21,761 nt of DNA from a virus. The stretch is taken from positions 1 to 21,761 of IMG/VR virus record IMGVR_UViG_3300024520_000542. The stretch is one strand, 5' to 3'. Of this stretch, positions 3,882 through 18,169 are shown in pieces. The notes under the pieces were generated by a model, which saw only the letters and a program-made list of their open reading frames with translations, made no database searches and had not been told where the DNA came from. The translations under genes were made by a program, and so were the position numbers. Numbering within the stretch: position 1 is the first letter of the stretch; each line of letters begins with the position of its first letter.

Positions 3882-5731
3882 TGCAAATGCCTCTTTTCAA
3901 ACCACAAACAGAATGGTTACCACCAGAAAGTTTTCCGGATTTATCTAAATACGATGAAATAGCAATTGACTTAGAAACCAAAGACCCAGATTTAATAAAA
4001 ATGGGATCAGGTTCAGTGGTTGGTAGAGGAGATGTTACAGGAATAGCTATAGCAGTAAAAAACTGGTGCGGTTATTACCCAATTGCCCACGAAGGTGGTG
4101 GTAACATGGATCGTAAAAAAGTTCTTAAATGGTTTCAAGATGTATTAAATACATCATCTACAAAAATCTTTCACAACGCCATGTATGACGTTTGTTGGAT
4201 ACGAGCGCTCGGTTTAAGTATCAGCGGTAAAATAGTCGACACAATGATAGCGTCGGCTTTGGTTGATGAAAATCAAATGCGCTATGACTTAAACAACTGC
4301 AGTAAAAGATACACTGGAAAAGGAAAAAATGAAACAGATTTATATGCTGCTGCAAAAGATTGGGGAGTTGACGCCAAGGCAGAAATGTATAAACTACCTG
4401 CCATTTATGTAGGTGCATATGCAGAAAAAGATGCTGAGATAACTTTAGAACTTTGGCAAGAACTTAAGAAAGAAATTAATCATCAAGATATAAATTCAAT
4501 TATGAATATGGAAACTGAATTGTTTCCTGTGTTGGTTGATATGAGATTTAAGGGAGTGCGCGTCGATGTGGAAGCTGCTCATAAGTTAAAAACCAAATTA
4601 CTTGAAGAAGAAAAACAATCATTAATGAAAGTAAAAAAAGAAACAGAAATAGATGTCCAAATATGGGCAGCAAGATCCATTGCACAAGTTTTTGATAAGC
4701 TTTCTTTAGACTACGATCGAACCGAGAAAACATCTGCTCCTTCCTTTACTAAAAACTTTTTACAGAATCACCCCCACCCACTAGTGAAACACATAGCCCG
4801 GGCTCGTGAAATAAATAAAGCCCATACCACCTTCATTGATACCATATTGAAACATTCTCACAAGGGAAGAATCCATGCAGAAATTAACCAACTAAGAGGA
4901 GATAATGGTGGAACGGTAACTGGAAGATTCAGTTATTCAAACCCAAATTTACAGCAGGTTCCAGCTAGAAACAAAGAGCTTGGACCAGCTATTAGATCAT
5001 TATTTATACCCGAGGAAGGCCATACATGGGGTTGTTTTGATTACTCACAACAAGAACCAAGATTAGTAGTTCACTATGCGACTTTACAAAATCTATACGG
5101 AGTGGACGAAGTATTGGAAGCATATCGCGAAGGCGATGCAGATTTTCATACCATCGTCGCAGACATGGCAGAGATACCTAGATCACAGGCCAAGACGATA
5201 AATCTTGGTCTGTTCTATGGTATGGGAAAAAATAAATTACAAGCTGAACTAGGAGTGAGTAAAGAAAAAGCTGAAGGACTATTTAAACAATATCATCACA
5301 AAGTTCCATTTGTAAAACAACTTATGGATAATGTAATGCGTAGGGCCCAAGACTCTGGAAGAATTAGAACACTACTTGGAAGATTATGTAGGTTCCATTT
5401 ATGGGAGCCCAATGCATTTGGAATTCATAAAGCATTACCACATCCACAAGCACTCATGGAACACGGACCAGGGATTAAGCGTGCTTACACTTACAAAGCA
5501 TTAAATAAATTAATTCAAGGATCAGCCGCAGACATGACAAAGAAAGCAATGATAGACTTACACAAAGAAGGAATTATTCCACATATACAAGTACATGATG
5601 AATTAGACATATCTGTTCAAGATGAACAAGAAGCAAAACTAATAAAAGGTGTTATGGAAGATGCTGTTTCTCTTGAAGTTCCTAATAAAGTTGACTACGA
5701 ATCGGGGCCCAATTGGGGAACAATAAAATAA
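3878..5731 (+). CDS. polA: Family A DNA polymerase with 3'-5' exonuclease domain
   Basis: The N-terminal part has DnaQ-like proofreading motifs: IAIDLET (exo I), FHNAMYDVCWI (exo II) and YAEKDAEITLELW (exo III). The polymerase core follows: TGRFSYSNPNLQQVP, motif A DYSQQEPR with catalytic D388, the O-helix KTINLGLFYGMG, and motif C HDE (H573, D574, E575). At 617 residues it lacks a 5'-3' exonuclease domain, as usual for phage enzymes. The O-helix position equivalent to E. coli Phe762 is Leu443, a substitution linked to altered nucleotide discrimination and, in viral ecology studies, often to temperate lifestyle. ATG 3878 overlaps the preceding gene by ATGA. This is the replicative polymerase of the phage. 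Confidence 0.96.
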   Translation: MMQMPLFKPQTEWLPPESFPDLSKYDEIAIDLETKDPDLIKMGSGSVVGRGDVTGIAIAVKNWCGYYPIAHEGGGNMDRKKVLKWFQDVLNTSSTKIFHNAMYDVCWIRALGLSISGKIVDTMIASALVDENQMRYDLNNCSKRYTGKGKNETDLYAAAKDWGVDAKAEMYKLPAIYVGAYAEKDAEITLELWQELKKEINHQDINSIMNMETELFPVLVDMRFKGVRVDVEAAHKLKTKLLEEEKQSLMKVKKETEIDVQIWAARSIAQVFDKLSLDYDRTEKTSAPSFTKNFLQNHPHPLVKHIARAREINKAHTTFIDTILKHSHKGRIHAEINQLRGDNGGTVTGRFSYSNPNLQQVPARNKELGPAIRSLFIPEEGHTWGCFDYSQQEPRLVVHYATLQNLYGVDEVLEAYREGDADFHTIVADMAEIPRSQAKTINLGLFYGMGKNKLQAELGVSKEKAEGLFKQYHHKVPFVKQLMDNVMRRAQDSGRIRTLLGRLCRFHLWEPNAFGIHKALPHPQALMEHGPGIKRAYTYKALNKLIQGSAADMTKKAMIDLHKEGIIPHIQVHDELDISVQDEQEAKLIKGVMEDAVSLEVPNKVDYESGPNWGTIK

Positions 5732-6372
5732 ACATAGACCAGCTATTACAGGCTCAAAAAATAGGTATGGCTCAGTTCGGGGCCCAATTAGGAAACCCTA
5801 AAATAGACAATCTATTAGAGGGCGGAATTCATATAGAAGAAAATTTTTTTCCTTTAAATATGTATGATGAAATGGTTGAAGAAATGGGCACTACTAAAAT
5901 GGACAGCACTTATCAGCCTCTTGGAATAAACTATGGTAATAGAATGCAAGCTATGCCTTGTTATGAAAATGCGCCTTTTCAGTTTAAACAAGATTTCATT
6001 GCAAATAAAATAGAAAAAATTTTAAATGCAAAGTTAGCCAACTATCGATGTCTTTTCAGAAAAATTAAAACAAAGGAACTTAAAAAATCACACTGTAACG
6101 GAAAGTATGGTTTCATTCATAGAGATAAAGATAATCAGGGTTTAGAAAACATTAAGGATTTAGCCGCCATAATGCATTTTGATCAATCTTTTTATGGAGG
6201 CACAGCTTTTTTTCGAAACATTTGGGAAAAGGTACCAGATATTTATGTAAGTGCTTTTCCAAATAGATTGGTAATATATGATGCCTGTAGATGGCATGCG
6301 CCAGCTTTTGATTATTCTTTTGAAGAAAGAACTAGTTTAGCATTTTTTTTAAAAGTTATAAATGAATCATAA
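5713..6372 (+). CDS. DUF6445-type protein, candidate Fe(II)/2OG oxygenase fold
   Basis: The 219-residue protein has an H-x-D pair in IMHFDQSFYGGTAFFRN (H155, D157) and a distal His in ACRWHAPAFDY (H195), the spacing of a double-stranded beta-helix Fe(II) site. The pattern, plus the segment NRLVIYDA, resembles DUF6445 proteins, which in bacteria often sit beside tryptophan-halogenase genes, as here. The start is uncertain. The TTG at 5713 overlaps the polymerase end by 19 nt; the ATG at 5767 would remove 18 residues and has only a weak ribosome site. The gene overlaps the halogenase start by 11 nt, so the two proteins are probably made together. The substrate is unknown. Confidence 0.72.
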   Translation: MGNNKINIDQLLQAQKIGMAQFGAQLGNPKIDNLLEGGIHIEENFFPLNMYDEMVEEMGTTKMDSTYQPLGINYGNRMQAMPCYENAPFQFKQDFIANKIEKILNAKLANYRCLFRKIKTKELKKSHCNGKYGFIHRDKDNQGLENIKDLAAIMHFDQSFYGGTAFFRNIWEKVPDIYVSAFPNRLVIYDACRWHAPAFDYSFEERTSLAFFLKVINES

Positions 6373-7858
6373 CAAAATAATTATAGTTGGAGGAGGAAGT
6401 GCAGGTTGGATGACAGCCGCCACTTTGATTAAAGCTTTTCCAAATAAAAGTATAACTGTTATGGAGTCACCCAATATTAAAAATATAGGAGTAGGTGAAA
6501 GCACTCTAGGACAGATTAATGATTGGTTAGATTTTTTAGAAATAAAAGATGAAGACTTTATGTCTTCTACGAATGCCAGTTATAAATTAAGTATCAGATT
6601 TGAAGACTTTTATAAAAAAGGAGATGGAGGTTTTCATTACCCTTTTGGACCAGTATTTGAAAATAATGAAGTAGGCCCTAAGGAATTATGGTTTTTTAAG
6701 AAAAAATTTTTTCCTGACTTACCTATATCCGATTATGCTACAAGCATCTCTCCTCAAATGGCATTAGTTAATAACAATGTTTTATTTAAAAATGAAGATA
6801 ATAAATTACCTCTATTCAATTTTAAATATAATGTGGCCTATCATTTTGATGCCAGTAAATTTGGAGAATGGCTTAGAGAATATTATTGTAAACCTAAAGG
6901 AGTTAAACATATTATAGAAGAAATACATAATATTCAAACAAATGACCAAGGAATAAAAACCTTAAATAATAAATACTCAGCTGATCTTTTTATTGATTGC
7001 ACTGGTTTTAAATCTCTATTATTAGGAAAAACTTTAAAAGAACCTTTTTGTGACTATTCACACTTACTACCAAACAACAAAGCGTGGGCTACGAGCATTC
7101 CCTATAAAGATAAAGAAAAAGAATTAAAACCTTATACTAATTGCACAGCCATAGAAAATGGTTGGGTATGGAATATACCTAGTTGGGACAAAATTGGAAC
7201 GGGATATGTATATTCAGATAAATATATCTCTGATGAAGAGGCTTTATTAGAATTTAAAAAACATTTAGGAAGAGAAGATTTAGAATTTAAAAATATTAAA
7301 ATGAGAGTTGGTATACACGAAAGAATTTTTGTAAAAAATGTTTGTGCTATTGGACTAGCAGCAGGCTTCATTGAACCCTTAGAGTCTAATGGACTATTAA
7401 GTGTACATGAATTTTTATTTAAACTAATCAATGTTTTAAGGAGAGGAAAAGTTACTCAGTGGAACAGAGATAATTTTAATGTTTCTTGTAAAACATTTTT
7501 TGATGAATTTACAGAATTTGTAGCTCTTCATTATGCCTTGTCACAAAGAACCGATACACCATATTGGCAAGACATTAGTAATAAGTCTTTCTATACAAAC
7601 CGTTTAGTGGATACTGAATTAAAATTAAATATAGATTCTTATATGCATAAATATAATTTTTTTCCATCTCATTCTGGCATTCATTATATCAGCACTGGTA
7701 TGAATTATTTTGGAGCTAATATAACAGAAAAAGAGCTATCTCCGGAAATTGAAAACATTATTAAAACAAGAGAAAATGAATTAAAAAACTGGAATAACAT
7801 ATGTCAAGGTAAAAATTCAGTCCTAAAATTTTTAAAAAACACTATTTATAAAGTATGA
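6362..7858 (+). CDS. Flavin-dependent tryptophan halogenase-like protein
   Basis: The 498-residue protein starts with the FAD-binding motif VGGGSAGWMTAATLI, followed by VGESTLGQINDWLDFL. It retains a Lys in SYKLSIRF (K75), aligned with the catalytic Lys (K79) of PrnA/RebH. It also has the diagnostic WxWxIP motif as WVWNIP (W268, W270) and a C-terminal FAD segment GLAAGFIEPLESNGL. Family members use reduced FAD, oxygen and halide to make a halogenating species; a partner flavin reductase is needed and none is seen here, so the host presumably supplies FADH2. A cyanophage halogenase (VirX1) is an established precedent for viral members. The substrate cannot be predicted. The partner DUF6445 gene overlaps its start. 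Confidence 0.88.
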   Translation: MNHNKIIIVGGGSAGWMTAATLIKAFPNKSITVMESPNIKNIGVGESTLGQINDWLDFLEIKDEDFMSSTNASYKLSIRFEDFYKKGDGGFHYPFGPVFENNEVGPKELWFFKKKFFPDLPISDYATSISPQMALVNNNVLFKNEDNKLPLFNFKYNVAYHFDASKFGEWLREYYCKPKGVKHIIEEIHNIQTNDQGIKTLNNKYSADLFIDCTGFKSLLLGKTLKEPFCDYSHLLPNNKAWATSIPYKDKEKELKPYTNCTAIENGWVWNIPSWDKIGTGYVYSDKYISDEEALLEFKKHLGREDLEFKNIKMRVGIHERIFVKNVCAIGLAAGFIEPLESNGLLSVHEFLFKLINVLRRGKVTQWNRDNFNVSCKTFFDEFTEFVALHYALSQRTDTPYWQDISNKSFYTNRLVDTELKLNIDSYMHKYNFFPSHSGIHYISTGMNYFGANITEKELSPEIENIIKTRENELKNWNNICQGKNSVLKFLKNTIYKV

Positions 7859-7904
7859 ATTTAGGTAAAATTAAGGTAAAATAAAATAAAAATAGGAGGA
7901 AACT

Positions 7905-8006
7905 ATGGAAAAAGTTAAACAACTATGGGCATTAGCAAAAGCTCATCCAAAAGGAGCGGCCGCTGTAGTGATAGTGATCATTGCTATTTATTTTTTAGCA
8001 ACATAA
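7905..8006 (+). CDS. 33-residue single-span membrane micro-protein
   Basis: A strong ribosome site (AGGAGG at 7895-7900) precedes the ATG by a few bases. The product has a short basic/amphipathic N-terminus (MEKVKQLWALAKAHPKG) and a hydrophobic segment AAAVVIVIIAIYFLA. The AT-rich 46 bp upstream (7859-7904) contains a near-tandem GGTAAAATTAA repeat but no convincing -35. From memory, similar micro-proteins occur in marine phages. It could be holin-like; function is not established. Confidence 0.72.
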   Translation: MEKVKQLWALAKAHPKGAAAVVIVIIAIYFLAT

Positions 8007-8016
8007 TTTATGAGCT

Positions 8017-8670
8017 ATGGCTTATTTAAATGCAAACATTCCTGTGATGTATTCCCAGATCAGAAGAGAATATCTTTATGATCTCCAAAAACATCACGGA
8101 GAAGTGGAAGACTGCATTATCTTTAGCCTGGCATCAATTACAGGGCGTCCTATTCTCTTTCATGCAATTATGGAAAACGGTGCTGTATTCTATCGGTTAC
8201 CGATCTCTGCTTTCATTCAAAGAGGATTTGAAGTTGATCAAGTTCCTAGGATGCGACTTGATGAGCTGGAGCTATGGAATTGTTTCAGTTACTATCCTAG
8301 CGTTACTTCTTTTGATATCCTAGACGGACAATCAGGTAAATTTATTGGAAAAGACAAGAAGTGGCATCCAGGTGCATATCTCTTTACTGTTGACTGGGCT
8401 CATCCAGAGAGTAATATAGTAGATACAGATCATTCTGAAATACCGCATGAACATAAGTGCGCCCACATTCTCGCCTTAGAGAATGGAAATTATGCAGCAC
8501 AACCTAATAATAGAATTATATGGAGTATTCCATCTTTTACTGTTAAAGATGAAATACCAGATTGGAAAGTGCAAACTTCAGACTGGAATGTTGAAGACAC
8601 GGGTAAATGGAAAACAGAAGATACCGATAGGTATTTTTACGATATTGAGAAAAAAAATGAAAAAGTGTAA
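8017..8670 (+). CDS. Conserved phage hypothetical protein
   Basis: The 217-residue soluble protein begins MAYLNANIPVMYSQIRREYLY. It is rich in aromatic residues, with segments such as FHAIMENGAVFYRLPIS, ELWNCFSYYPSVTSF, GAYLFTVDWAHPE and CAHILALENGNYAAQPNNRI, and ends in a Trp/Asp-rich charged tail. I recall similar conserved hypothetical proteins in marine podoviruses but know no function. The dense conserved motifs suggest a compact beta-rich domain. An alternative 81-residue frame inside it (8078-8323) is a shadow. The end overlaps the next Cys-rich gene by 14 nt. Confidence 0.82.
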   Translation: MAYLNANIPVMYSQIRREYLYDLQKHHGEVEDCIIFSLASITGRPILFHAIMENGAVFYRLPISAFIQRGFEVDQVPRMRLDELELWNCFSYYPSVTSFDILDGQSGKFIGKDKKWHPGAYLFTVDWAHPESNIVDTDHSEIPHEHKCAHILALENGNYAAQPNNRIIWSIPSFTVKDEIPDWKVQTSDWNVEDTGKWKTEDTDRYFYDIEKKNEKV

Positions 8671-8821
8671 AAATTGTAATTGTAATTGTCACTGTGATGG
8701 AGAACTTCATACAGACGTGTATGGTGTATGCACCTGTGATAATTGTAAATGTCGTGAAGTAAAAGACGAACCAGAAGGTCTTGTTGTTGATGAGACTGAA
8801 GAATGTGAAAGCTGTCAATAA
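8657..8821 (+). CDS. Small Cys-rich, probable metal-binding protein
   Basis: The 54-residue protein has 11 cysteines, mostly in an N-terminal run (CKNCNCNCHCDG) and a second cluster (CTCDNCKC), ending in an acidic stretch with ECESC. The pattern suggests metal binding of metallothionein or zinc-cluster type. The frame is open further upstream (from 8483), but that part lies inside the previous gene in another frame and is not credible. ATG 8657 gives the usual short overlap with the upstream gene. Function unknown. Confidence 0.68.
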   Translation: MKKCKNCNCNCHCDGELHTDVYGVCTCDNCKCREVKDEPEGLVVDETEECESCQ

Positions 8822-8822
8822 A

Positions 8823-8981
8823 ATGAAAAAACTATTATTAATATTATCCTTACTTGCATTTACTTCGTGTGTTGCAGTAGGACCTAGATGTACTTACACA
8901 CAAGAAGGAACTAAAATATCTTCTTGGTTGTGGTTTACTAAAGAAATACCAGTAGATTTAAGCAAAGAAAATTGTAACTAG
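8823..8981 (+). CDS. Small predicted lipoprotein
   Basis: The 52-residue protein has a typical signal sequence (MKKLLLILSLLAFTSC) with a lipobox-like FTSC, then a short polar domain containing two more Cys residues. The ATG follows the previous stop by one base. A small outer-membrane lipoprotein next to single-span membrane proteins would fit an o-spanin in a lysis module, but no endolysin was recognised nearby, so this is speculative. A longer reading from 8781 is rejected because it would lack an N-terminal signal and overlap the Cys-rich gene. Confidence 0.68.
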   Translation: MKKLLLILSLLAFTSCVAVGPRCTYTQEGTKISSWLWFTKEIPVDLSKENCN

Positions 8982-8982
8982 T

Positions 8983-9138
8983 ATGACTGAGGGGGGCGTT
9001 AATGAAGTACAGAACTTTAAAGCTTTTTCGGACAAGAAGAAACGCAAGGAAAAGAATTCAAGCAACAGAAAAAGCGGTGCAGGCTTTAATAATTGTCCTA
9101 ATGGTGATTCTAGTACTTTTGGTATAATGAATGTCTAA
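8983..9138 (+). CDS. 51-residue hydrophilic phage protein
   Basis: The product starts MTEGGVNEVQNFKAFSDKK, has a very basic middle and a Gly/Asn-rich C-terminal part GAGFNNCPNGDSSTFGIM. Codons in its second half show a strong purine-N-pyrimidine pattern with T in third position, which supports this frame over the competing frame at 9002-9127. The ATG is one base after the previous stop and the end overlaps the next gene by 8 nt, the habitual spacing in this region. Function unknown. Confidence 0.55.
   Translation: MTEGGVNEVQNFKAFSDKKKRKEKNSSNRKSGAGFNNCPNGDSSTFGIMNV
9002..9127 (+). CDS. Alternative overlapping micro-ORF, basic plus one membrane span
   Basis: This 41-residue frame lies entirely inside the 8983-9138 gene. 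It has the better ribosome site (a G-rich run at 8989-8996, about 5-6 nt before the ATG) and encodes a strongly basic N-terminus followed by a hydrophobic helix (ALIIVLMVILVLLV). It could be a genuine overprinted membrane protein or a coincidence. Confidence 0.3.
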   Translation: MKYRTLKLFRTRRNARKRIQATEKAVQALIIVLMVILVLLV

Positions 9139-9361
9139 ACAACCCTTAACAATTTCAGAAGAAGCAAAAGTTCAGATGCCCATGAAAACGGTTGCGAGCT
9201 TAATCACCCTCGTGGCGATCGGGACCTGGGCGTTTTTCGGTATTCAAGAAAAATTAAATACACATGCAACTAAACTACAAATTATGGAGAAGGATCTCGA
9301 AATGAATTCAGAGTTCAGAATAAAATGGCCTCGTGGATTACTCGGATCCTTACCCCGCTGA
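9131..9361 (+). CDS. Membrane-anchored protein, N-terminal part, probably continued by frameshift
   Basis: The product has a polar N-terminus, one membrane segment (VASLITLVAIGTWAFFGI), then a helical region ending FRIKWPRGLLGSLP before a stop. The downstream frame continues smoothly as ADSEQFMLIEELY if one base of the CCCC at 9353-9356 is skipped. I recall single-chain phage proteins with this order. The two frames are therefore probably one gene of about 135 residues, separated by a +1 shift that is either programmed or an indel or sequencing error in the C run. Membrane anchor plus coiled coil would suit a spanin- or holin-like role, unproven. Confidence 0.68.
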   Translation: MSKQPLTISEEAKVQMPMKTVASLITLVAIGTWAFFGIQEKLNTHATKLQIMEKDLEMNSEFRIKWPRGLLGSLPR

Positions 9362-9548
9362 TTCAGAACAATTTATGTTAATTGAGGAATTATATAAACA
9401 AAGTGACAAGCTGCAGACACGAGTAGATAGTATGTTACATAATGAAGTTAATATAAAAGCTTTAGAAAAAGCTGTCGAAAAGCTTCAAAAAGATGTAGAA
9501 CGTCTTAAGGATAAACAAAGAGAATTTGGTAACGGGAGTACTCACTAA
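9333..9548 (+). CDS. Coiled-coil protein, C-terminal part of the frameshifted membrane protein
   Basis: The frame can start at GTG 9333 (VDYSDPYPADSEQ), overlapping the upstream ORF by 29 nt, but is more naturally the continuation of that ORF after a +1 shift at CCCC (9353-9356). From about residue 15 it is a charged helix with heptad character (LEKAVEKLQKDVERLKDKQ), a likely coiled coil. The end overlaps the next ATG by one base (TAATG). Confidence 0.65.
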   Translation: MDYSDPYPADSEQFMLIEELYKQSDKLQTRVDSMLHNEVNIKALEKAVEKLQKDVERLKDKQREFGNGSTH

Positions 9549-9826
9549 TGGAAGAAGTAATTATATGCGTAGCACTTTGTCTCTTCATGAATGGAGAGTT
9601 AGTCGAGCATACATACCAAAAATCCATGGGTGACTGCTTAAAGTCGAAGAGGGTCGCCGAGCGCACGATCCAGCCCGAGCGCGTTCAATTTAAATGCGGT
9701 GCTAATGTTAAGGCAAGAGTAGAATATGTAGAAGAAAAAGGAGAGACTGCAGCACGAACACGTATTATAGAAGTTCTGGATCATGGTTATGAGAGCGATA
9801 GTTATGACTCGGAATCGCGGTACTAA
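9548..9826 (+). CDS. Small secreted or membrane-anchored phage protein
   Basis: The 92-residue protein has an uncleaved-signal-like hydrophobic N-terminus (MEEVIICVALCLFMNGELVEHTY), then CLKSKRVAERTI, FKCGANVKARVEY, and an acidic, Ser/Tyr-rich tail. The layout resembles the genes at 11015 and, on the minus strand, at 11308: an N-terminal hydrophobic segment followed by a spaced Cys pair. I recall relatives in marine phages, all uncharacterised. Its start overlaps the previous stop by one base. Confidence 0.7.
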   Translation: MEEVIICVALCLFMNGELVEHTYQKSMGDCLKSKRVAERTIQPERVQFKCGANVKARVEYVEEKGETAARTRIIEVLDHGYESDSYDSESRY

Positions 9827-9953
9827 AAAAAATAATCCCATAGCAAGATGGCTAAGATTAAGAAGATATAGAATGCTTGTGATGAAGAATAAGAAAGCGT
9901 ATGACAGAAAAAAAGCAGCGAAAACCCTTCATAATTCGGAAATTTACTCTTAA
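9804..9953 (+). CDS. Small very basic phage protein
   Basis: The 49-residue product MTRNRGTKKNNPIARWLRL... is dominated by Arg and Lys (KNKKAYDRKKAAK near the end) and could bind nucleic acid. It overlaps the end of the previous gene by 23 nt and the start of the next by 53 nt. An in-frame ATG at 9789 would add five residues. From memory, similar short basic proteins (NPIARALR-type) recur in marine phages, which is the main reason to accept it. Confidence 0.58.
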   Translation: MTRNRGTKKNNPIARWLRLRRYRMLVMKNKKAYDRKKAAKTLHNSEIYS

Positions 9954-10458
9954 TAATTTTTTAAAGTGGGAAGATTTAGACTACGCTATTAAAAATTCTA
10001 AAGACAAAGACATTGAAATTATAACTACCGATGGAAGAAAATTAATAGATTTAGAGGGTCAAAAAAAACATGTTAAATATAATTCAGTAGTTATAACTAA
10101 GTGTAAACATCTATTTGACTTTAAATTTATCAAGGATTTTGTGGATAATAAGAAGATATTCTATTATAGGCTATGGAATGCAGATATTTACGCCTCATAT
10201 AATGAAAAAAGTTGTTCTTTTAAAAAGCACTTAGACTATGCAAATAATTTAATTATCCCTCAGATTGGAAAAAGTCGCTGGATAGTAGAGAATTTCTGCG
10301 ACACAATGCTTTACCCAGGAGATCTGCTGTATATCCCATACAAATGGAAACACGAATGTGTTCCTACAGAAAAAAGAATATCCCTTAGTTTTCCTTTTTG
10401 GTTGGATCCCGCTCTGATGTCCCCAGCCGATAATGAAAAATCTGGTATATTTAAATAA
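9901..10458 (+). CDS. JmjC/cupin-like Fe(II)/2OG oxygenase
   Basis: The 185-residue protein has a metal-site pattern of JmjC/cupin-8 type: H110-x-D112 in SFKKHLDYANN and H151 in GDLLYIPYKWKHEC, with the characteristic PGDLLYIP turn just before the second His and a beta-rich ending RISLSFPFW. The N-terminal half is alpha/beta and polar, with no motif I recognise. Relatives include ribosomal-protein hydroxylases and tRNA hydroxylases; which substrate this one uses cannot be told. It is one of eight candidate Fe(II)-dependent oxygenases in the window. ATG 9901 overlaps the basic micro-protein gene. Confidence 0.75.
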   Translation: MTEKKQRKPFIIRKFTLNNFLKWEDLDYAIKNSKDKDIEIITTDGRKLIDLEGQKKHVKYNSVVITKCKHLFDFKFIKDFVDNKKIFYYRLWNADIYASYNEKSCSFKKHLDYANNLIIPQIGKSRWIVENFCDTMLYPGDLLYIPYKWKHECVPTEKRISLSFPFWLDPALMSPADNEKSGIFK

Positions 10459-10845: not shown

Positions 10846-10851
10846 TACAGT

Positions 10852-11576: not shown

Positions 11577-11828
11577 ATGACAGACACAACCAAATATAGA
11601 AATGTCTCTCTTACACATGAAACATACAAGGGAGGTCATCTTTTATCAACAAAAATGTTTAATGGTCTCCAAGTATCTATGTCTCAGTTAATAGAATCAT
11701 TAATAACTCAGAAGATAAAAGAGCTTAAACTTGAATCTAAGTTAGCTTCTTATGATCGACCAGAAAAAGTTAAATATAACAAAAAGAGAAAGAGAAATGG
11801 CAAAACTAAAAGTAAGAAGAATCCATAA
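11577..11828 (+). CDS. Ribbon-helix-helix-like DNA-binding protein
   Basis: From ATG 11577 the product has 83 residues: MTDTTKYRNVSLTHETYKGG as a likely beta-strand and first helix, VSMSQLIESLITQKIKEL as a second helix, then a long Lys/Arg tail. This is the size and pattern of Arc/MetJ-type repressors. ATG 11565 is in frame and would add four residues (MKGI), but AAAGGA (11568-11573) then serves as ribosome site for 11577. Its dedicated consensus promoter supports a regulatory role, possibly autoregulation. DNA binding is inferred. Confidence 0.65.
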   Translation: MTDTTKYRNVSLTHETYKGGHLLSTKMFNGLQVSMSQLIESLITQKIKELKLESKLASYDRPEKVKYNKKRKRNGKTKSKKNP

Positions 11829-12018
11829 AGCTATCTGTCCAACTTGTAGAGGAAATGGATATATTAGAATAAAAGATAACGAAGACCCAACTGAAGTAAA
11901 TGTTCATCAGTGTTGGGAATGTGATTCGGAAGGAGAATTTTATGTTTATGAACCAGCGAATATTACAGACGATAATACTAGTAACGATGATCGTAATAAT
12001 GACAAATTCTTGCACTAG
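11797..12018 (+). CDS. Small DnaJ-type zinc-finger protein
   Basis: The 73-residue protein has CPTCRGNGYIRI and CWECDSEGEF, two CxxCxGxG-like repeats as in the DnaJ central domain, then a highly acidic Asn/Asp tail. It probably binds one zinc. The ATG at 11797 follows a purine-rich AAGAGAAAGAGAA; the frame is open upstream from 11752 but that part overlaps the RHH gene. Similar short zinc proteins occur widely in phages, with no defined role. Confidence 0.68.
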   Translation: MAKLKVRRIHKAICPTCRGNGYIRIKDNEDPTEVNVHQCWECDSEGEFYVYEPANITDDNTSNDDRNNDKFLH

Positions 12019-12062
12019 CAGAGGAGATTATAATCCTATTACAAGTGTATTAAGATTAATGT

Positions 12063-12176
12063 ATGGCGCACGATAACAAAATTAACAGTTGGGGACGGTC
12101 TATTGTCCAATCGAGGTTTAATCAGCCTTTCTACCACGGGTTGGCCTGCTCCCCTCATATTCATCGCCCGTGGTAG
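12063..12176 (+). CDS. 37-residue micro-ORF overlapping an RNA stem
   Basis: The product is MAHDNKINSWGRSIVQSRFN followed by QPFYHGLACSPHIHRPW. Its stop codon lies in the right arm of the 12130-12177 stem, just 4 nt before the ATG at 12181. Composition is unusual, but the WGR and CSPH motifs vaguely recall micro-proteins of marine phages. It could be a real peptide or a leader that opens the stem. Confidence 0.4.
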   Translation: MAHDNKINSWGRSIVQSRFNQPFYHGLACSPHIHRPW

Positions 12177-12177
12177 A
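12130..12177 (+). promoter_or_regulatory. Perfect 11-bp stem-loop in front of a gene
   Basis: Positions 12130-12140 pair perfectly with 12167-12177 (core CTACCACGGG / CCCGTGGTAG), enclosing a 26-nt loop. The stem is GC-rich, ends three bases before ATG 12181 and covers the place where its ribosome site should be. There is no T-run, so it is not an intrinsic terminator. A smaller stem lies upstream (TTGGGGAC / GTCCAA, about 12089-12111). Confidence 0.55.
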
Positions 12178-12180
12178 CAA

Positions 12181-12321
12181 ATGAAGAAATTAAAAATGAG
12201 TATATTATTATGGATTCAAGGATGGTCGGGTCAACTTAATTCGTGGGCCTGGACTGAATGGGATCAACTTAATCGAGAGGATTGGGTTAAAGGTTATAAC
12301 AAATGGAAAAAAAATGAATAA
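12181..12321 (+). CDS. Small Trp-rich phage protein
   Basis: The 46-residue protein MKKLKMSILLWIQGWSGQLN continues with SWAWTEWDQLNREDWVKGY and a Lys-rich end; it has seven tryptophans. The N-terminal helix could sit at a membrane. The frame opens at a TTG (12103), but that stretch overlaps the stem-loop and looks non-coding. The end overlaps the next micro-ORF by 8 nt. Function unknown. Confidence 0.6.
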   Translation: MKKLKMSILLWIQGWSGQLNSWAWTEWDQLNREDWVKGYNKWKKNE

Positions 12322-12394
12322 CTTTTTTATAATTGTATTTGCTTCCCTTACAGTGGTAATAATTTTAAGTTTATACATGGTAATGACTCTATGA
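12314..12394 (+). CDS. 26-residue membrane micro-protein
   Basis: MNNFFIIVFASLTVVIILSL plus a short tail: essentially one membrane helix. It overlaps the previous gene by 8 nt and the next by ATGA (12391-12394), the same architecture as the micro-ORFs at 3333-3493. Function unknown. Confidence 0.5.
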   Translation: MNNFFIIVFASLTVVIILSLYMVMTL

Positions 12395-12582
12395 AAAATA
12401 AATACTACATAACCTACTATTCAAAATCTGATGGGAAAAGAATTAAACGTCCATACGATCCTCATCATGAAATGCAACACGAGTTTATTGCATCTACTGG
12501 TAATCTTTGTAAAAGATATTGGGATCAAAGTAAGGATGGATTGAGAACGGCTAACGCACCATGGACGATACAAAAAAATTAA
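12391..12582 (+). CDS. Conserved small phage hypothetical protein
   Basis: The 63-residue protein has a conserved-looking pattern YYITYYSKSDGKRI then RPYDPHHEMQHEFI, LCKRYWDQSKDG and APWTIQKN. I recall this type from marine phages with no function. Start ATG 12391 overlaps the micro-protein stop; the end overlaps the next gene by 22 nt. Confidence 0.68.
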   Translation: MKNKYYITYYSKSDGKRIKRPYDPHHEMQHEFIASTGNLCKRYWDQSKDGLRTANAPWTIQKN

Positions 12583-12734
12583 AGTGGAATAACTATATGA
12601 AAGAGTATAGAAAGAGAGGATACGTTAAAAAGAAATATCATGAATATTATATTAATAGAATAATTAGACAGGCAGCAGAAGATAATGAAAAAAGAAAAAG
12701 GCAAACAGTGGGACGGGAAGTCCCGAGTGTCTAA
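12561..12734 (+). CDS. Small basic helical protein
   Basis: The 57-residue product is Lys/Tyr-rich (EYRKRGYVKKKYHEYYINRI) and predicted helical. ATG 12561 overlaps the previous gene; ATG 12597 (MKEYRKRG) is an alternative start. It overlaps the next gene by 50 nt in a different frame. Nucleic-acid binding is plausible; function unknown. Confidence 0.5.
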   Translation: MDDTKKLKWNNYMKEYRKRGYVKKKYHEYYINRIIRQAAEDNEKRKRQTVGREVPSV

Positions 12735-12849
12735 TAAAAAATATAGAGAAAGGTTTGAAGAAATTTTCGGACAAAAAGAACAACATGAATTAAATGAAAG
12801 TTATCAACAGTCTTTAAGAAACAAAAAAGATCGGACAAAAAATGATTGA
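12685..12849 (+). CDS. Small charged phage hypothetical protein
   Basis: The 54-residue protein MKKEKGKQWDGKSRVSNKKY continues RERFEEIFGQKEQHELNESY and a basic end. The motif GKSRVSNKKYRERFEEIF resembles a short protein I recall from marine phages. It overlaps the upstream ORF by 50 nt and the next oxygenase gene by 8 nt. Confidence 0.6.
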   Translation: MKKEKGKQWDGKSRVSNKKYRERFEEIFGQKEQHELNESYQQSLRNKKDRTKND

Positions 12850-13369
12850 AATATTTGACGAGATGATTCCCCTAAGCGTTCGTAATAGTATTTATAAATT
12901 TATAATTAATTCTAATTATAGAATTGAAGGATGGACAGATACCTCTGACTTAGAATTAAAGAACCATCATCATCTTCATTCTAGGTGGGGTTTAGAAGAT
13001 ATTCAAAATTCTCAAATTGTTCCTTATGTTGAAAAAGTGTTACAGCTCTCTAGTTTTAAAGACTATACCATGAAAGACTTTCTTCAATGCGCTGTTAATT
13101 TAGTTAAACCAGGCGATCACTATTTCACTCACTCACATGACTTGGGAGTAATTTCTATTATATATTATGCAAATCTACAATGGCAACATAACTGGGCTGG
13201 CGAAACTATTTTTTATAAAGAAAACATGACGGACATTGAACTCGCTGCATCCTATGTCCCAGGAAGATTTATTATATTTGACAAAGAACCTCATACCATT
13301 CGACCTCAATCATCTATTGCACCAGCATTTAGGTTTACACTAGCTATATTTTTTCAAAAAAAGAAATAA
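12842..13369 (+). CDS. Fe(II)/2OG oxygenase, prolyl-4-hydroxylase-like
   Basis: The 175-residue protein has the double-stranded beta-helix pattern of prolyl-hydroxylase-like phage proteins: VKPGDHYFTHSHDLGVISII (H97, H99, D100), WAGETIFY, PGRFIIFD, then H151 and R154 in EPHTIRPQS and a terminal FRFTLAIFF strand. R154 is the likely 2-oxoglutarate anchor. The first ligand set reads HSHD rather than a plain HxD, so the exact metal ligands need modelling. Substrate unknown. It begins a run of four directly adjoining oxygenase genes, overlapping its upstream neighbour by 8 nt. Confidence 0.82.
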   Translation: MIEIFDEMIPLSVRNSIYKFIINSNYRIEGWTDTSDLELKNHHHLHSRWGLEDIQNSQIVPYVEKVLQLSSFKDYTMKDFLQCAVNLVKPGDHYFTHSHDLGVISIIYYANLQWQHNWAGETIFYKENMTDIELAASYVPGRFIIFDKEPHTIRPQSSIAPAFRFTLAIFFQKKK

Positions 13370-13370
13370 A

Positions 13371-13925
13371 ATGAATGAAATTTCTATTTTATTTGGTACA
13401 CCTTTGATCTCATCCACTGTTGATTTAGATAAAATAAAGGTTGGACCTACTAATCTTAAAAAAGCTTACCTTTCTCAGACCCCTAACAGAAGCGGAATAG
13501 ATCTCCTCTCTAAGGAATCTATCTCTTATTTAAAAAGTAAACTGGCCACCATGGTAGAGGAAGTTAAAAATTTATTAAATATTAAAAGCTGTGATCTTTA
13601 TATTCAACATATTTGGCTTAATGATTATCAAGAAAAAGACTATCAAGAATCTCATGCTCATGCAGGGAATGGTTTTAGTTTTATTATTTATTATGATACT
13701 CTTAAATGTAATACTATTCTGGAACACCCAGCTAAAAAAGAAATACTATGTGGTCAAAATCCAGAAGAAGATTACTCCATATATGACACTCACTTCGCAT
13801 TAAACAAGAAAAATGGGGATATTATCATGTTTCCATCCTGGTTATCACATTTTGTAAAACCTAATTCAGATGGTAAAACGATAGCTGGAAATATTAATTT
13901 TAGAAAAATATTAAAAAATGACTGA
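13371..13925 (+). CDS. Fe(II)/2OG oxygenase-like protein (2OG-FeII_Oxy_5 type)
   Basis: The 184-residue protein has QHIWLNDYQEKDYQESHAHA (H95, H97), GFSFIIYYD, GDIIMFPSWLSHFVKP (H160) and the final AGNINF strand, as in the TIGR02466-like putative 2OG oxygenases. The first metal site reads HxH rather than HxD, common in this subgroup; activity is therefore inferred from fold, not shown. Its ATG lies one base after the previous stop and its end overlaps the next gene by 8 nt. It probably arose by duplication with its neighbours, though identity is low. Confidence 0.78.
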   Translation: MNEISILFGTPLISSTVDLDKIKVGPTNLKKAYLSQTPNRSGIDLLSKESISYLKSKLATMVEEVKNLLNIKSCDLYIQHIWLNDYQEKDYQESHAHAGNGFSFIIYYDTLKCNTILEHPAKKEILCGQNPEEDYSIYDTHFALNKKNGDIIMFPSWLSHFVKPNSDGKTIAGNINFRKILKND

Positions 13926-14565
13926 TCAACAAGTACCTGTCGCAACCTACAATTGGGGACCCTGCGTTATTAAAATAAAAGCTAGAGACAATTTTATAAA
14001 AATGCTTTTAGATGAAGCTAAGAAAAGTAAAATATCTTATGAGCATAAACTTGCTGGTCAACTGAATAAAGAAATGGGTTATACTCAGGAGTCTAAAGAT
14101 ATTATTGCTCCAGAACTCGCTAAGTATCTTGGAGCGTACGATCAAATGTACCAGAAGTATCAGAACAAACCCTATGAAAATCCACCTAAATATGCCATTA
14201 GTGCTTTATGGATAAATTATCAAAGACAATATGACTTTAATCCACCGCATGATCATGACGGCGCTTTGTCTTTTGTAGTTTATTTAGATATTCCTCAAGA
14301 ATTAATTGAAGAAAATAAAAATTATAAAGGAAGAAGCTGTGGTCCTGGTGGTATACAGTTTGTTTATGGCGACGGAGGCCGCGATTATATAACTTACATG
14401 TCAGAAGTACCTAAGACTGGGGAAATGTTTATCTTTCCAGCGTCTCTTAAACATTGGGTTTCTCCTTTTAGATCTGATGTCACTAGAATTTCTGTCTCCG
14501 GTAACATTCAAAATACAGTTCCTATTCATACCCTTCCTAAAAATACCAAGATAAAGGCATCGTAA
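13918..14565 (+). CDS. Fe(II)/2OG oxygenase-like protein
   Basis: The 215-residue protein contains SALWINYQRQYDFNPPHDHD (H111, D112, H113, D114), LSFVVYLDIP, GEMFIFPASLKHWVSPF (H179) and RISVSGNI (R190). The NPPHDH...LSFV pattern is the one seen in 2OG oxygenases of T4-like cyanophages, as I recall. An insertion rich in Gly (RSCGPGGIQFVYGDGG) separates the two metal-site halves. Substrate unknown. The stop overlaps the next ATG as TAATG. Confidence 0.8.
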   Translation: MTDQQVPVATYNWGPCVIKIKARDNFIKMLLDEAKKSKISYEHKLAGQLNKEMGYTQESKDIIAPELAKYLGAYDQMYQKYQNKPYENPPKYAISALWINYQRQYDFNPPHDHDGALSFVVYLDIPQELIEENKNYKGRSCGPGGIQFVYGDGGRDYITYMSEVPKTGEMFIFPASLKHWVSPFRSDVTRISVSGNIQNTVPIHTLPKNTKIKAS

Positions 14566-15128
14566 TGGAATATCTATTTTATAAATGGGATTCCTATTTC
14601 AATAAATCTGAATTAGTTAAATTATCCGAAACTATTTATGATAAAAGGAACAAAGAATTTGAAGAAATAGGAGCCACTGTTAATGGAGAAAGAATTAAAA
14701 AAGCTACTACACTAGCTTTTGAATGGATTGCTGTTAAACATCTTATGAAACGTTTGGACGAAGCTATCTTTGTTACCAACCAAAACAAATATGGATACAA
14801 TGTTCACACTCTTTTAGATTGTGATACCTTATTATATAATATTTATGACGCCAAAAAAAATCATGCTTACGCATGGCATAAGGACGGAGAAGGAGACGGC
14901 GATAAAGTTTGTATAAAATTTACTGTTCTTATTAATGTTTCCACCGAACCTTATGAAGGAGGAAAATTTCAACTGTTTGGTAACGGAGGCGAAACGGAAG
15001 TGCCGGCGATGAATACTCCTGGGAGTGTTGTTATGTTTAAGTCAGACATTCCACATCGAGTGTTGCCTATTACTAAAGGTATAAGAAAATCTATAACTAT
15101 ATTCATTAAGGGGCCCCCTTTTGTCTAA
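14565..15128 (+). CDS. Fe(II)/2OG oxygenase, PKHD-hydroxylase-like
   Basis: This 187-residue protein has the cleanest catalytic triad of the set: H105-x-D107 in YAWHKDGEGDGD, H164 in SDIPHRVLPI, and R174 in GIRKSITIFI. Between them lie FTVLINVSTEPYEGGKFQLF and PGSVVMF, typical of prolyl-hydroxylase/PKHD-type enzymes. Activity is therefore likely; the substrate is unknown. It follows the previous oxygenase with a one-base overlap and overlaps the endonuclease VII gene by 8 nt. Confidence 0.87.
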   Translation: MEYLFYKWDSYFNKSELVKLSETIYDKRNKEFEEIGATVNGERIKKATTLAFEWIAVKHLMKRLDEAIFVTNQNKYGYNVHTLLDCDTLLYNIYDAKKNHAYAWHKDGEGDGDKVCIKFTVLINVSTEPYEGGKFQLFGNGGETEVPAMNTPGSVVMFKSDIPHRVLPITKGIRKSITIFIKGPPFV

Positions 15129-15660
15129 TTTAAATTCTGATAAATATTGGAAAAAAAGAAAAGGTAAAAGACGACCTTATAAATGTGAATCCCACGAAAT
15201 TTTTCACAAGCGTGGAAGAATGAAAATTGTTGGAAAAGAAGATGAACTTAGAGAGTGTAAAGAATGTCATAGATTTTTACCCACTGTTTCTTATACTACT
15301 GCAAGTCAAAGAAGCGATGGTGCATTATATCTTAAAAAAATATGCCGCGAGTGTTCTAGCCGAATGATAATGGAAGGCCGAGAGGTAAAAGCCAAGGCTC
15401 CTCCTAAGCCCGATAGTGGACAATGCTACTGTTGTCATAAAAAGAATCCATTACAATGTGACCATGCACACGGGACCACGGAATTTAGAGGATGGATCTG
15501 CAAGTCATGTAATGTAGGTCTTGGAGAATTGGGAGATAACTTACAAGCGGTGCTTCAAGCGGCTATCTACTTAGAGAGCGATACCAATAAAATTATAAAA
15601 ACTTTACATGAAGTTTATAATGAAATGTTTGCGAGGACTTTTAAATTTAATGATGAGTGA
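15121..15660 (+). CDS. Recombination endonuclease VII-like nuclease
   Basis: The 179-residue protein contains a His-Cys pattern of phage endonuclease VII: CYCCHKK, CDHAHGTTEFRGWICKSCN (H115, H117) and GLGELGDN. Four Cys should bind zinc and the HxH region forms the beta-beta-alpha metal active site. An additional N-terminal Cys region (CESH, CKECHRF, CRECS) may form a second zinc finger. T4 endonuclease VII resolves branched DNA before packaging; this one probably debranches replication intermediates. The start is TTG 15121, overlapping the previous gene by 8 nt. Confidence 0.87.
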   Translation: MSNLNSDKYWKKRKGKRRPYKCESHEIFHKRGRMKIVGKEDELRECKECHRFLPTVSYTTASQRSDGALYLKKICRECSSRMIMEGREVKAKAPPKPDSGQCYCCHKKNPLQCDHAHGTTEFRGWICKSCNVGLGELGDNLQAVLQAAIYLESDTNKIIKTLHEVYNEMFARTFKFNDE

Positions 15661-16285
15661 TAAAGATATAAAAGAATTTCATAATTTAGATAAACTTAAA
15701 CCAATAAGTTTGCGTGGAAAGTCTACGTACCACATTATGTATGCCCATGATTTTACTTGGGGTTATCTCGACAACGTTGATAATGAAAAACTTAGTAAAC
15801 TATGCATTAAAAATTATGAGAATAGAAAGAGTGAGGATAGAAGAAGCGGACGAGCCGAGGATATAGTTATACCTTTAAATAAACAAATTGAAGAGATAGC
15901 AGCACAAATGGCTCTAGCTTATGAACAACATTTTCGTCAACCCATAAGCCTGATGGAGGGAGAAGGAAATCATTGGTCCCAGGTTCATTATAAAAAGGAA
16001 CAATCACAGTTTCATCATCACTTAGGAAATGCATATGGTCAAAGAGAAAAGGGAGCGGATGTTGTAGGAGTTTATTATGTGAAGGTTCCAAAAGACAGTG
16101 GAGTTTTAATTATGAAATATAAAAAACATGAATTTGATAGTAGTAGATGGTACTTCCCCCCGGAAGAAAATAAATTTATTCTTTTTAATGCTGGCGTTGA
16201 ACATGGGGTATCTCCTAACGAGAACGATGAGCCTAGAGTGATTATCTCTATGAATTTTGAAAGGAAAGATGATAAAAATATCTAA
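15650..16285 (+). CDS. Fe(II)/2OG oxygenase-like protein (2OG-FeII_Oxy_5 type)
   Basis: From ATG 15650 (or 15653) the protein has 211 residues. It includes HWSQVHYKKEQSQFHHHLGN (H122-H124), ADVVGVYYVKVP, RWYFPPEENKFILFNAGVEH (H185) and a final RVIISMNF strand. The VYYV, PPEENKFILF and H-G-V-SPN elements match TIGR02466-like putative 2OG oxygenases. The usual HxD is replaced by a His-rich stretch, so catalytic competence is uncertain. The frame extends upstream to 15608, but that part lies inside endonuclease VII; the ATG near that gene's stop is chosen. Confidence 0.77.
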   Translation: MMSDKDIKEFHNLDKLKPISLRGKSTYHIMYAHDFTWGYLDNVDNEKLSKLCIKNYENRKSEDRRSGRAEDIVIPLNKQIEEIAAQMALAYEQHFRQPISLMEGEGNHWSQVHYKKEQSQFHHHLGNAYGQREKGADVVGVYYVKVPKDSGVLIMKYKKHEFDSSRWYFPPEENKFILFNAGVEHGVSPNENDEPRVIISMNFERKDDKNI

Positions 16286-17015
16286 TAAATACAAATATTT
16301 ACAGGGAAAACAGATCACGGACCAGGAATCAGGGACCAGGGTTTATGACTTCGCTGGGGTACGTTTACCTTCGGTTACAACAATACTTGCAAAGACAAAG
16401 AATCAGGAGTATTTAACGCGTTGGAAAAATAAGGTTGGACATGAAAAAGCAGAATCAATCAAGAATCTATCATCAAAGCGGGGGACTGCCATGCACAAAT
16501 TCTTGGAGTCTCATATCACGGGAGTTGGCTACGATGATCTTACGCCAATCGGATGCGAGGCGAAGCCCATGGCCGAAAAAATTATTGAGATCGGTCTTAC
16601 ACCTATTGAAGAAGTCTATGGTAGTGAAATTATGTTACACTATCCTGGGCTGTACGCTGGGAGTACTGATCTCGTATGTCTACATAATGGTCTGGAAACT
16701 ATTGTAGATTTTAAACAAAGCAATCGACCAAAGAAAGAAGAGTGGGTTGAAGATTATTATTTACAAATTGCGGCTTATGCTATGGCGCATGATGCATACT
16801 ATGGGTCAACCATCAGGCAGGGAGTAATTATGATGTGCACACCAGATTTATATTATCAAGAATTTAAAGTATCGGACAGTGTATTAAGGGGTTGGAAGCA
16901 TAAGTTTCTTAAGAGATTGGACCACTACAATGAGCTCATGCATGATGAGAAGGAACAACAAAATGTCCAAATTAAGGCAAATGAGTTTGAAATAAGGCAG
17001 AAAGAAGGCAAATAA
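16269..17015 (+). CDS. PD-(D/E)XK exonuclease, RecB/Cas4-like
   Basis: The 248-residue protein has the core of phage RecB-like nucleases: RGTAMHKFLE near residue 80, LYAGSTDLV with D134, and the IVDFK motif with D147 and K149, followed by YYLQIAAYAMAH, where the Gln of motif QxxxY sits. It probably degrades DNA ends or acts in recombination and host DNA breakdown. TTG 16257 would add four residues, but AAAGGAAAG just before ATG 16269 is a good ribosome site. It is the last gene before the inverted-repeat region at 17031-17268. Confidence 0.86.
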   Translation: MIKISNKYKYLQGKQITDQESGTRVYDFAGVRLPSVTTILAKTKNQEYLTRWKNKVGHEKAESIKNLSSKRGTAMHKFLESHITGVGYDDLTPIGCEAKPMAEKIIEIGLTPIEEVYGSEIMLHYPGLYAGSTDLVCLHNGLETIVDFKQSNRPKKEEWVEDYYLQIAAYAMAHDAYYGSTIRQGVIMMCTPDLYYQEFKVSDSVLRGWKHKFLKRLDHYNELMHDEKEQQNVQIKANEFEIRQKEGK

Positions 17016-17041
17016 GGCACCAAGACAGATTCTGTATAGGT

Positions 17042-17170
17042 ATGGTAAAAAAAATAAAAAATAAAATAAAAACTACTCTAGAAAAAGTGTCAATCTGTCA
17101 CTTTGGCTTAGAAGTGTTGGTATCAAACAATAATGATTGCCAAATTGTGGAAATAAAAAGTGTCATCTGA
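17042..17170 (+). CDS. 42-residue candidate ORF inside the inverted-repeat region
   Basis: The ORF starts at the ATG in the left repeat arm and encodes MVKKIKNKIKTTLEKVSICH then FGLEVLVSNNNDCQIVEIKS and two more residues. It looks protein-like, but no ribosome site precedes it and it covers the TGTCA motifs. It may be a real small protein or chance. Confidence 0.3.
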   Translation: MVKKIKNKIKTTLEKVSICHFGLEVLVSNNNDCQIVEIKSVI

Positions 17171-17221
17171 CAGATTATATTGTCACTTCAGGCACAATCT
17201 CAGATTGCCCGCGCGCGAAGC

Positions 17222-17252
17222 AAATCAAAAACACTATTACTTTGATTTTTTT
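17222..17252 (+). terminator. AT-rich hairpin with T-run
   Basis: AAATCAAA (17222-17229) pairs with TTTGATTT (17241-17248) across an 11-nt loop and is followed by a T-run to 17252. It is weak (one G-C pair), but in the right form for an intrinsic terminator of the upstream operon. It partly overlaps the right arm of the long inverted repeat. Confidence 0.35.
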
Positions 17253-17294
17253 ACCATACCTATACAGATTAGAAATTTAGGGTTATAAGAAGAC

Positions 17295-17585
17295 ATGCCT
17301 AAGAAAAGAAGAAAACAAGTGGTTCAACACCCAACACCAGCCATACCTTATAGCAAGTATAGGGTTCATTGGATTGATATCTTAAGTGATAGTGGATGGG
17401 CTGATGAAAGAGAGTTTAATAAGATGAGACTCTCACATCCGGTGAACGAGGGCTGGTTGTATTCTAAAGATAGGGATGCAATTAAATTATTTGCTTCTTA
17501 TGATCGAGAAGAAGATGGTACAATTACTTTTGGGGATCGTACTATGATTCCTGTGTCTTGTGTGAAGAAGATGGTAAAGATATGA
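17295..17585 (+). CDS. Conserved small phage hypothetical protein
   Basis: The 96-residue protein has a basic N-terminus (MPKKRRKQ) and conserved-looking segments YRVHWIDILSDSGWADEREF, EGWLYSKDRDAIKLFASYD and TFGDRTMIPVSCVKKM, suggesting a small beta-rich fold. I recognise no function. It is the first gene after the inverted-repeat region and joins the following oxygenase gene through an ATGA overlap (17582-17585). Confidence 0.75.
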   Translation: MPKKRRKQVVQHPTPAIPYSKYRVHWIDILSDSGWADEREFNKMRLSHPVNEGWLYSKDRDAIKLFASYDREEDGTITFGDRTMIPVSCVKKMVKI

Positions 17586-18169
17586 TTGAAGACCTGTTCC
17601 CGGTCGCCCTCTATCATGAACAGTTAAACTTAAATACGGAGCGTATGGCTAAGTATTGTTTAGACATGCAGAAAGTTTTCCCTGGTGTGGTAGTGAGTAA
17701 TAATGGTGGTTGGCAATCGCCTCCTTTAAAAGGAAGGCATGAGCCATTAGAAGTATTGTTTTCAAGTATACATAAGCATGCAAAAATATATCAAGAGATT
17801 CTTAAATTTAAACATCCATTACAAATCAATCCTTTGTGGATAAATATTAATGGGTATAAAGATTATAATATAGAACACATTCATCCACATGCTGTGGCTT
17901 CAGGCGTTTTTTATATTAAAATACCACCGTTAGATAAAAATGATGGGGCTTTGAAGTTTGTTCATCCTCTAGGACAATTTTTAGAATATGATTGGCCATA
18001 TGATAGTGTAAGCGAGCCAAATAAATATAATACTAATAGATGGTTTATTCCTCCAAAGGTTAATCAATTATTATTGTTTCCTGGTTGGATAAATCACACA
18101 GTTACTCCTCATCATGTTAAGGATGAGGATAGAATATCTATTTCTTTTAATTTAACTAGATTAAGTTAA
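17582..18169 (+). CDS. Fe(II)/2OG oxygenase-like protein (2OG-FeII_Oxy_5 type)
   Basis: From ATG 17582 the protein has 195 residues, starting MIEDLFPVALYHEQL, the usual N-terminus of TIGR02466-like putative 2OG oxygenases. It has WININGYKDYNIEHIHPHAV (H99, H101, H103), SGVFYIKIP, RWFIPPKVNQLLLFPGWINH (H172) and RISISFNL. The HxH form of the first metal motif is typical of this group. A frame extension to 17558 is rejected because the ATGA overlap with the previous gene marks the start. The end overlaps the convergent terminase gene by 4 nt. Confidence 0.82.
   Translation: MIEDLFPVALYHEQLNLNTERMAKYCLDMQKVFPGVVVSNNGGWQSPPLKGRHEPLEVLFSSIHKHAKIYQEILKFKHPLQINPLWININGYKDYNIEHIHPHAVASGVFYIKIPPLDKNDGALKFVHPLGQFLEYDWPYDSVSEPNKYNTNRWFIPPKVNQLLLFPGWINHTVTPHHVKDEDRISISFNLTRLS

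Follow-up and report, generated by a model that had tools for sequence, protein, structure and literature searches.

A stretch of 21,761 nucleotides of viral DNA (IMG/VR record IMGVR_UViG_3300024520_000542; hereafter the window) carries, within about 12.5 kb, eight genes for Fe(II)/2-oxoglutarate (2OG)-type oxygenases and one for a flavin-dependent halogenase (FDH). Do these nine genes form one oxidative tailoring system, as an earlier note on this DNA had suggested with nucleic acids as the target to be considered first? The reading that we tentatively prefer, at slightly less than even confidence, is that a phage of SAR11, the bacteria most abundant in the ocean, here carries accessory oxidative enzymes as a mosaic and not as one pathway, with the first oxygenase and the halogenase as a coupled unit. 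The best supported part of this reading is the pairing of halogenase and oxygenase, which would constitute a real functional unit. All nine genes lie at the places given in the note, and their families were assigned by profile comparisons together with a structure model of the first oxygenase. The oxygenases are designated A, B, C1, C2, C3, C4, D and E, according to the starts 5713, 9901, 12842, 13371, 13918, 14565, 15650 and 17582, and the FDH gene starts at 6362. The features are as follows (DSBH, double-stranded beta-helix):

5732 to 7890, plus strand: inserted A-halogenase cassette, about 2.15 kb with approximate boundaries, GC content 0.29
5767 to 6372, plus strand: A, DSBH oxygenase, weakly DUF6445-like; the open reading frame (ORF) may start at 5713 (TTG)
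6362 to 7858, plus strand: flavin-dependent (tryptophan-type) halogenase, VirX1-like, with the motifs GGGSAG, SYK, WVWNIP and PLES; 11-nt overlap with A
9901 to 10458, plus strand: B, JmjC_2-type oxygenase with HxD (H110, D112), H151 and R159
12842 to 13369, plus strand: C1, FlmC-like DSBH oxygenase with H97-x-H99, H151 and R164
13371 to 13925, plus strand: C2, PF13759 oxygenase, TIGR02466-like, with HxH...H...K
13918 to 14565, plus strand: C3, PF13759 oxygenase with HxH (H111, H113), H179 and R190
14565 to 15128, plus strand: C4, PF13640 (YbiX/PKHD-like) oxygenase with H105xD107, H164 and R174
15121 to 15660, plus strand: endonuclease VII-like gene
15650 to 16285, plus strand: D, PF13759 oxygenase with HxH...H...R
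16257 to 17015, plus strand: PD-(D/E)XK exonuclease, common to HTVC023P-type relatives
17582 to 18169, plus strand: E, TIGR02466/PF13759 oxygenase with HxH...H...R, homologous to 2rg4 and 3bvc

The pairing was analyzed in 44 non-redundant viral FDH loci, whose FDHs differ by more than 10%. A DSBH gene directly adjoins the FDH in 36 of the 44 loci and lies within 20 bp on the same strand in 32. DSBH genes occupy 50 of 84 FDH neighbour slots versus 28.4 expected on average when the FDH was placed at randomly chosen junctions within each locus (p 1e-4). Across the phages the partner is drawn from varied DSBH families (A, C2, C3, C4, E, FlmC-like and a so-called ferrochelatase family, see below), and this synteny points to a shared functional need rather than to one ancestral operon. 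The overlap of A and FDH amounts to 11 nt in the window and in the fetched related viral contigs (denoted by L-numbers) L005/L171, L006, L165, L170, L172 and L173, and to 14 nt in L002/L003; the flanking genes differ. The halogenase of the window matches PF04820 (3e-106, 356 bits versus a cut-off of 21) with all motifs intact (GGGSAG at 10, SYK at 73, WVWNIP at 268, PLES at 339), and its nearest solved structure is VirX1 (386 bits). Separately, tandem halogenase-like gene pairs, overlapping or nearly so, were seen in L040, L050, L052, L055 and L057.

According to polA kinship and gene order, the window is a fragment of an HTVC023P-type pelagiphage, whose host would be SAR11. Its polA is 60–63% identical to those of Pelagibacter phage HTVC027P and phage 023Pt_psg01, and the order AEP-type primase, UvrD helicase, DUF3310, DNA polymerase A and, further on, PD-(D/E)XK exonuclease, minus-strand terminase small subunit and GP88 matches that of both phages. 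The A-halogenase cassette sits at the junction of polA and a small ORF, a junction that is closed in the close relatives L085, L089 and L101 (polA about 90% identical), and its region has a GC content of 0.29 versus 0.36–0.37 beside it. The halogenase was absent from ten C3- or polA-bearing relative records, which are fragments, and from three isolates. At the level of sequence, these comparisons show a cassette that was acquired separately, with a history differing from that of the downstream oxygenase array. The single oxidative tailoring system of the earlier note is difficult to reconcile with the two histories, and a single pathway was rejected since related records (fragments as well) carry array oxygenases without the halogenase. 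A tblastn search with A in 50,697 phage records gave no match, and a pattern search in 84,980 prokaryote genomes yielded 97 candidate stretches, none of which was confirmed, so that a cellular source was not found. As a side observation, a degenerate and incomplete copy of the 3' end of polA lies at positions 7861–7898, where the insertion has its right border; it suggests recombination at the polA end.

The array has a different record. As described earlier, C1 to C4 lie head to tail (12842–15128), separated by a gap of 1 nt and then by overlaps of 8 and 1 nt. The sister contig L257 (80–88% DNA identity) has all five of C2, C3, C4, D and E, arranged about the exonuclease as they are in the window. 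On its reverse strand at 830–1633 a LAGLIDADG gene stands in place of C1 and adjoins C2, and endonuclease VII is absent at this place. Between window and L257 the ratio of nonsynonymous to synonymous substitution rates (dN/dS) of the five shared genes is 0.13–0.38, near the 0.14–0.18 of exonuclease, terminase and GP88, which indicates that they are maintained by purifying selection. No close relatives of C1 were found in viral contigs. Upstream of the exonuclease, C3 is present in most of the 80 fetched relatives; at 13 of 19 non-redundant loci the two are no more than 300 bp apart, and other genes often lie in between. Of 21 non-redundant relatives with C3, 19 have no other oxygenase in the fetched stretch, and the isolate genomes (58–61 kb) hold two to three PF13759 genes in their tail region; consequently, the number of oxygenases in the window is above the expectation for the group. 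A denser case is known (contig L017, nine oxygenases in 17.6 kb). The expectation was judged from the C3 loci and the isolate genomes instead of the polA loci; a comparison of oxygenase density (0.07 per 10 kb at polA loci, 3.2 per 10 kb at FDH loci) was set aside, given that the majority of polA contigs stop shortly past polA. At the level of sequence, this comparison indicates that C2, C4, D and E were added to a resident C3, giving an array under purifying selection in the sister phage, with C1 and endonuclease VII as the parts that vary between the two. The DNA-processing neighbourhood stressed by the earlier note thus holds as a conserved group feature mainly for C3, and not for endonuclease VII.

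The assignment of the eight oxygenases rests on curated profiles of varying reach. B matches JmjC_2 (PF08007; 2e-10, 41 bits versus a cut-off of 22), and C2, C3, D and E match PF13759 (2OG-FeII_Oxy_5) with E-values of 1e-10, 5e-15, 2e-6 and 5e-21, their 42, 56, 29 and 75 bits all exceeding the cut-off of 27. In TIGR02466 (NCBIfam) only E is above the cut-off (81 versus 62.5). C4 matches PF13640 (1e-10). C1 matches FlmC NF052475 over its full length (3e-15), yet its 57 bits stay below the cut-off of 240, and PF13640 is below its cut-off as well. Since the DUF6445 (PF20043) match of A is also below the cut-off (E 0.003, 18 bits versus 24), A alone among the eight was modelled, the others being placed by sequence and profile comparison. 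The model, built from nine homologues, has a predicted local distance difference test score (pLDDT) of 82; its best Foldseek match is the P. putida prolyl 4-hydroxylase (P4H) 4iw3, solved with EF-Tu (E 2.5e-7), and it superimposes on FtmOx1 and OkaE with a VIA Z of 14.3 (root-mean-square deviation (rmsd) 3.1–3.2 over about 175 residues). The fold is further supported by matches of E to 2rg4 (E 3e-13) and of C4 to 4iw3 (E 6e-4), by JmjC_2 for B and by hhalign, which aligned C1 and the C2/C3/D/E profile to C4 at 94%. For A and the ferrochelatase family hhalign against C4 was not significant, probably owing to shallow alignments; the structure models settled both cases. With respect to the gene starts, 15650 and 17582 agree better with the relatives than do 15608 and 17558, where the longer ORFs begin, and the relatives suggest 5767 as the start of A instead of the TTG at 5713, which overlaps polA. 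Separately, the PHROG family phrog_274, called DNA endonuclease V, matches DSBH oxygenases (L073:3172-3801 at 5e-32; in the window A, C3, C4, D and E), and its name looks wrong.

The concern that most of the eight might not be DSBH proteins or might lack a usable metal site was not borne out; they are DSBH proteins with plausible metal sites. A (H136, D138, H195 and R206 in the numbering from 5713), B and C4 carry the canonical HxD...H, each plus an arginine, and C1, C2, C3, D and E carry HxH...H plus arginine or lysine. The basic residue past the distal histidine, of the 2OG-binding type, is a lysine in C2 and an arginine in the other seven. In PF13759-like phage oxygenases (window 13371–18169 and 189 relatives) HxH...H replaces HxD...H almost invariably. 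Among 164 PF13759-like complete triads with a distal histidine in the fetched loci 162 are HHH and two HDH, which argues against decay as the origin of HxH in the five proteins; the C4-like proteins are HDH in 60 cases and HHH in six. The bacterial structures 2rg4 and 3bvc carry the HxH motif as well, and the three-histidine site may bind Fe(II). A literature search on FlmC, 2RG4 and three-His 2OG enzymes returned nothing usable except an EgtB-type three-His enzyme.

For the coupled unit we propose that A and the halogenase would be translationally coupled and would share a substrate. A host flavin reductase would supply FADH2 to the FDH, which would halogenate an electron-rich aromatic (Trp/indole or Tyr/phenol), and A, as a 2OG enzyme, would hydroxylate the same molecule. 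The other oxygenases would work on their own, and each would use up host 2OG and O2 in the hydroxylation of a target from host or phage. Proteins or peptides would be the most likely targets, metabolites next and DNA the least likely; the first are favoured because the detectable kin are prolyl/JmjC-type hydroxylases (P4H/PKHD, JmjC_2), and A may have a small-molecule target because its model also fits the metabolite enzymes FtmOx1 and OkaE. Ten small ORFs of the window gave no recognisable peptide-precursor family in a PHROG scan, which was not exhaustive. The rise of host iron-uptake transcripts during HTVC027P infection (PMC12753301) is consistent with the proposal. With two genes in 2.15 kb, A and the halogenase offer a tractable handle toward a first substrate. 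A bolder statement joins two claims: that the halogenase-oxygenase operon is widespread in marine phages, adding halogen and hydroxyl marks to a protein or peptide during infection, and that the PF13759-type family, dominant among phage oxygenases, relies on an iron site made of histidines alone (HxH...H), where textbook 2OG enzymes have HxD...H. As a combination we hold this to be unlikely.

Of the alternatives, oxidation of phage or host DNA by AlkB- or TET-like oxygenases, in modification or repair, agrees with the location among polA, endonuclease VII and exonuclease, with the C3-exonuclease order found in nearly all relatives and with the DNA repair role earlier proposed for cyanophage 2OG genes near uvsX/Y/W (PMC9146016, PMC3037559). 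However, none of the eight proteins has a Pfam match to AlkB (PF13532) or TET/JBP (PF12851) at E ≤ 1, their families being PKHD/P4H-like, JmjC_2, TIGR02466 and FlmC; the genes searched included no known partner gene of hypermodification; endonuclease VII lies outside the conserved array, and the genes that often separate C3 from the exonuclease loosen that link further. The nearest solved halogenase is VirX1, and we know of no FDH acting on DNA. Nucleic-acid modification is thereby weakened as the first choice, and we regard it as quite unlikely. Tailoring of tail or other virion proteins by halogenase and oxygenases, altering adsorption or stability, would fit the FDH surroundings, since phrog_3287 (virion structural), phrog_7759, phrog_31104 or the glycine-rich phrog_2295 lies at most five genes away in 30 of the 44 loci, and HTVC023P has three 2OG genes and the ferrochelatase near a putative tail protein. 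Of these four families, though, only phrog_3287 is annotated as a virion protein, and all nine genes of the window lie in the replication module and not in the tail module, so that virion proteins are less obvious as targets in the case of this cassette; this explanation is unlikely.

Tailoring of a small molecule, such as an indole compound, or a drain on 2OG that changes nitrogen signalling seems somewhat unlikely. VirX1 halogenates diverse small substrates according to the title of Gkotsi 2019 (cited in PMC10452541), the A model reaches equal Z with the metabolite enzymes FtmOx1 and OkaE and with prolyl hydroxylases, and a 2OG model has been put forward for cyanophages (PMC3037559). On the other hand, no biosynthetic or transport genes were recognised in the window, and eight divergent enzymes with conserved sites would be superfluous for a drain on 2OG. 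Passive accumulation, in which promiscuous accessory genes gather at a recombination hotspot and several have little effect, is suggested by the exchange of C1 for a LAGLIDADG gene, by the variable presence of other parts and by the mosaic gene content of these phages. It is opposed by the dN/dS values of the five array genes beside those of exonuclease, terminase and GP88, by the intact active sites of all eight oxygenases and by the stability of the five-gene array, and is very unlikely.

Several points also weigh against the mosaic with its coupled A-halogenase unit. The activities and substrates of all nine enzymes are predicted, five of the eight oxygenases carry HxH, and 2OG use is deduced from the conserved arginine or lysine. 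Virion-type genes stand near the FDH in 30 of the 44 loci, so that part of the FDH-oxygenase adjacency may stem from a common insertion hotspot, though the permutation stayed within the same loci. All FDHs sampled belong to one clade (about 51–78% identical to the query), and genes were called by simple ORF rules. Furthermore, with relatives' genomes of 58–61 kb, the window covers about one third of a genome.

Phage 2OG oxygenase arrays and phage halogenases are already known. HTVC023P-type pelagiphages, the group of this phage, have eight types of 2OG oxygenase, and clustered multiple non-orthologous 2OG-Fe(II) oxygenases have been reported there (Wittmers 2022, PMC9599517). In those phages the oxygenases are nearby but not adjacent and are partnered with the ferrochelatase, whereas the window has four head to tail and an inserted FDH-oxygenase pair; a halogenase is not mentioned in the text of that paper. 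The cyanophages S-SCSM1 (24 2OG oxygenases), S-CREM1 (10 plus a PrnA-type halogenase) and S-SZBM1 (9 plus PrnA) resemble the window in their many divergent PF13759/PF13640 oxygenases, and the latter two in their tryptophan-type halogenase; however, they are large T4-like cyanophages with these genes spread genome-wide, compared with eight that lie within a 12.5-kb part of a pelagiphage. VirX1, a cyanophage flavin-dependent halogenase (PDB 6qgm), has the same motif set as the window halogenase, which differs in that its gene is coupled to a DSBH oxygenase gene. The PF13759/TIGR02466 proteins 2rg4 and 3bvc are homologues of E (E 3e-13) and of the C2/C3/D/E profile (E 3e-16), with HxH in common; both are bacterial and uncharacterised proteins. 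In the searched literature, which comprised open-licence papers, we did not find a halogenase in an HTVC023P-type phage, the operonic pairing of FDH and oxygenase, the HxH rule for PF13759-like oxygenases or a DSBH fold for the phage ferrochelatase.

The latter family, phrog_2954, lies within three genes of the FDH in 21 of the 44 loci and has an invariant HxD...H (for example L018:8687-9310, L008:8492-9325 and L258:6302-6922). It has no Pfam match, and its family profile gave nothing against PDB sequences. Modelled with a pLDDT of 87, it resembles prolyl hydroxylases and SnoN (Foldseek to P4H E 4.7e-9; VIA Z 16–17 over 160–180 residues, rmsd 2.5–3.0), so that phrog_2954 is probably a DSBH oxygenase and not a ferrochelatase. 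HTVC023P gp67, annotated as putative ferrochelatase (L258:6302-6922), is a close member. The published partnership of ferrochelatase and 2OG oxygenases in HTVC023P-type phages (PMC9599517, PMC11561400) would then probably be one of two oxygenases, and the reassignment would alter the published view of iron and heme metabolism in these phages.

Two further observations concern the genes between polA and B. The gene at 8017–8670 follows polA in nearly all relatives; it is named ferredoxin in PHROG (phrog_3704) and purM in the HTVC027P record, and with no Pfam match both names are doubtful. At 9131–9548, two overlapping ORFs match residues 2–56 and 55–119 of 120 in one family, phrog_20984, a split that is a frameshift by assembly, mutation or programming.

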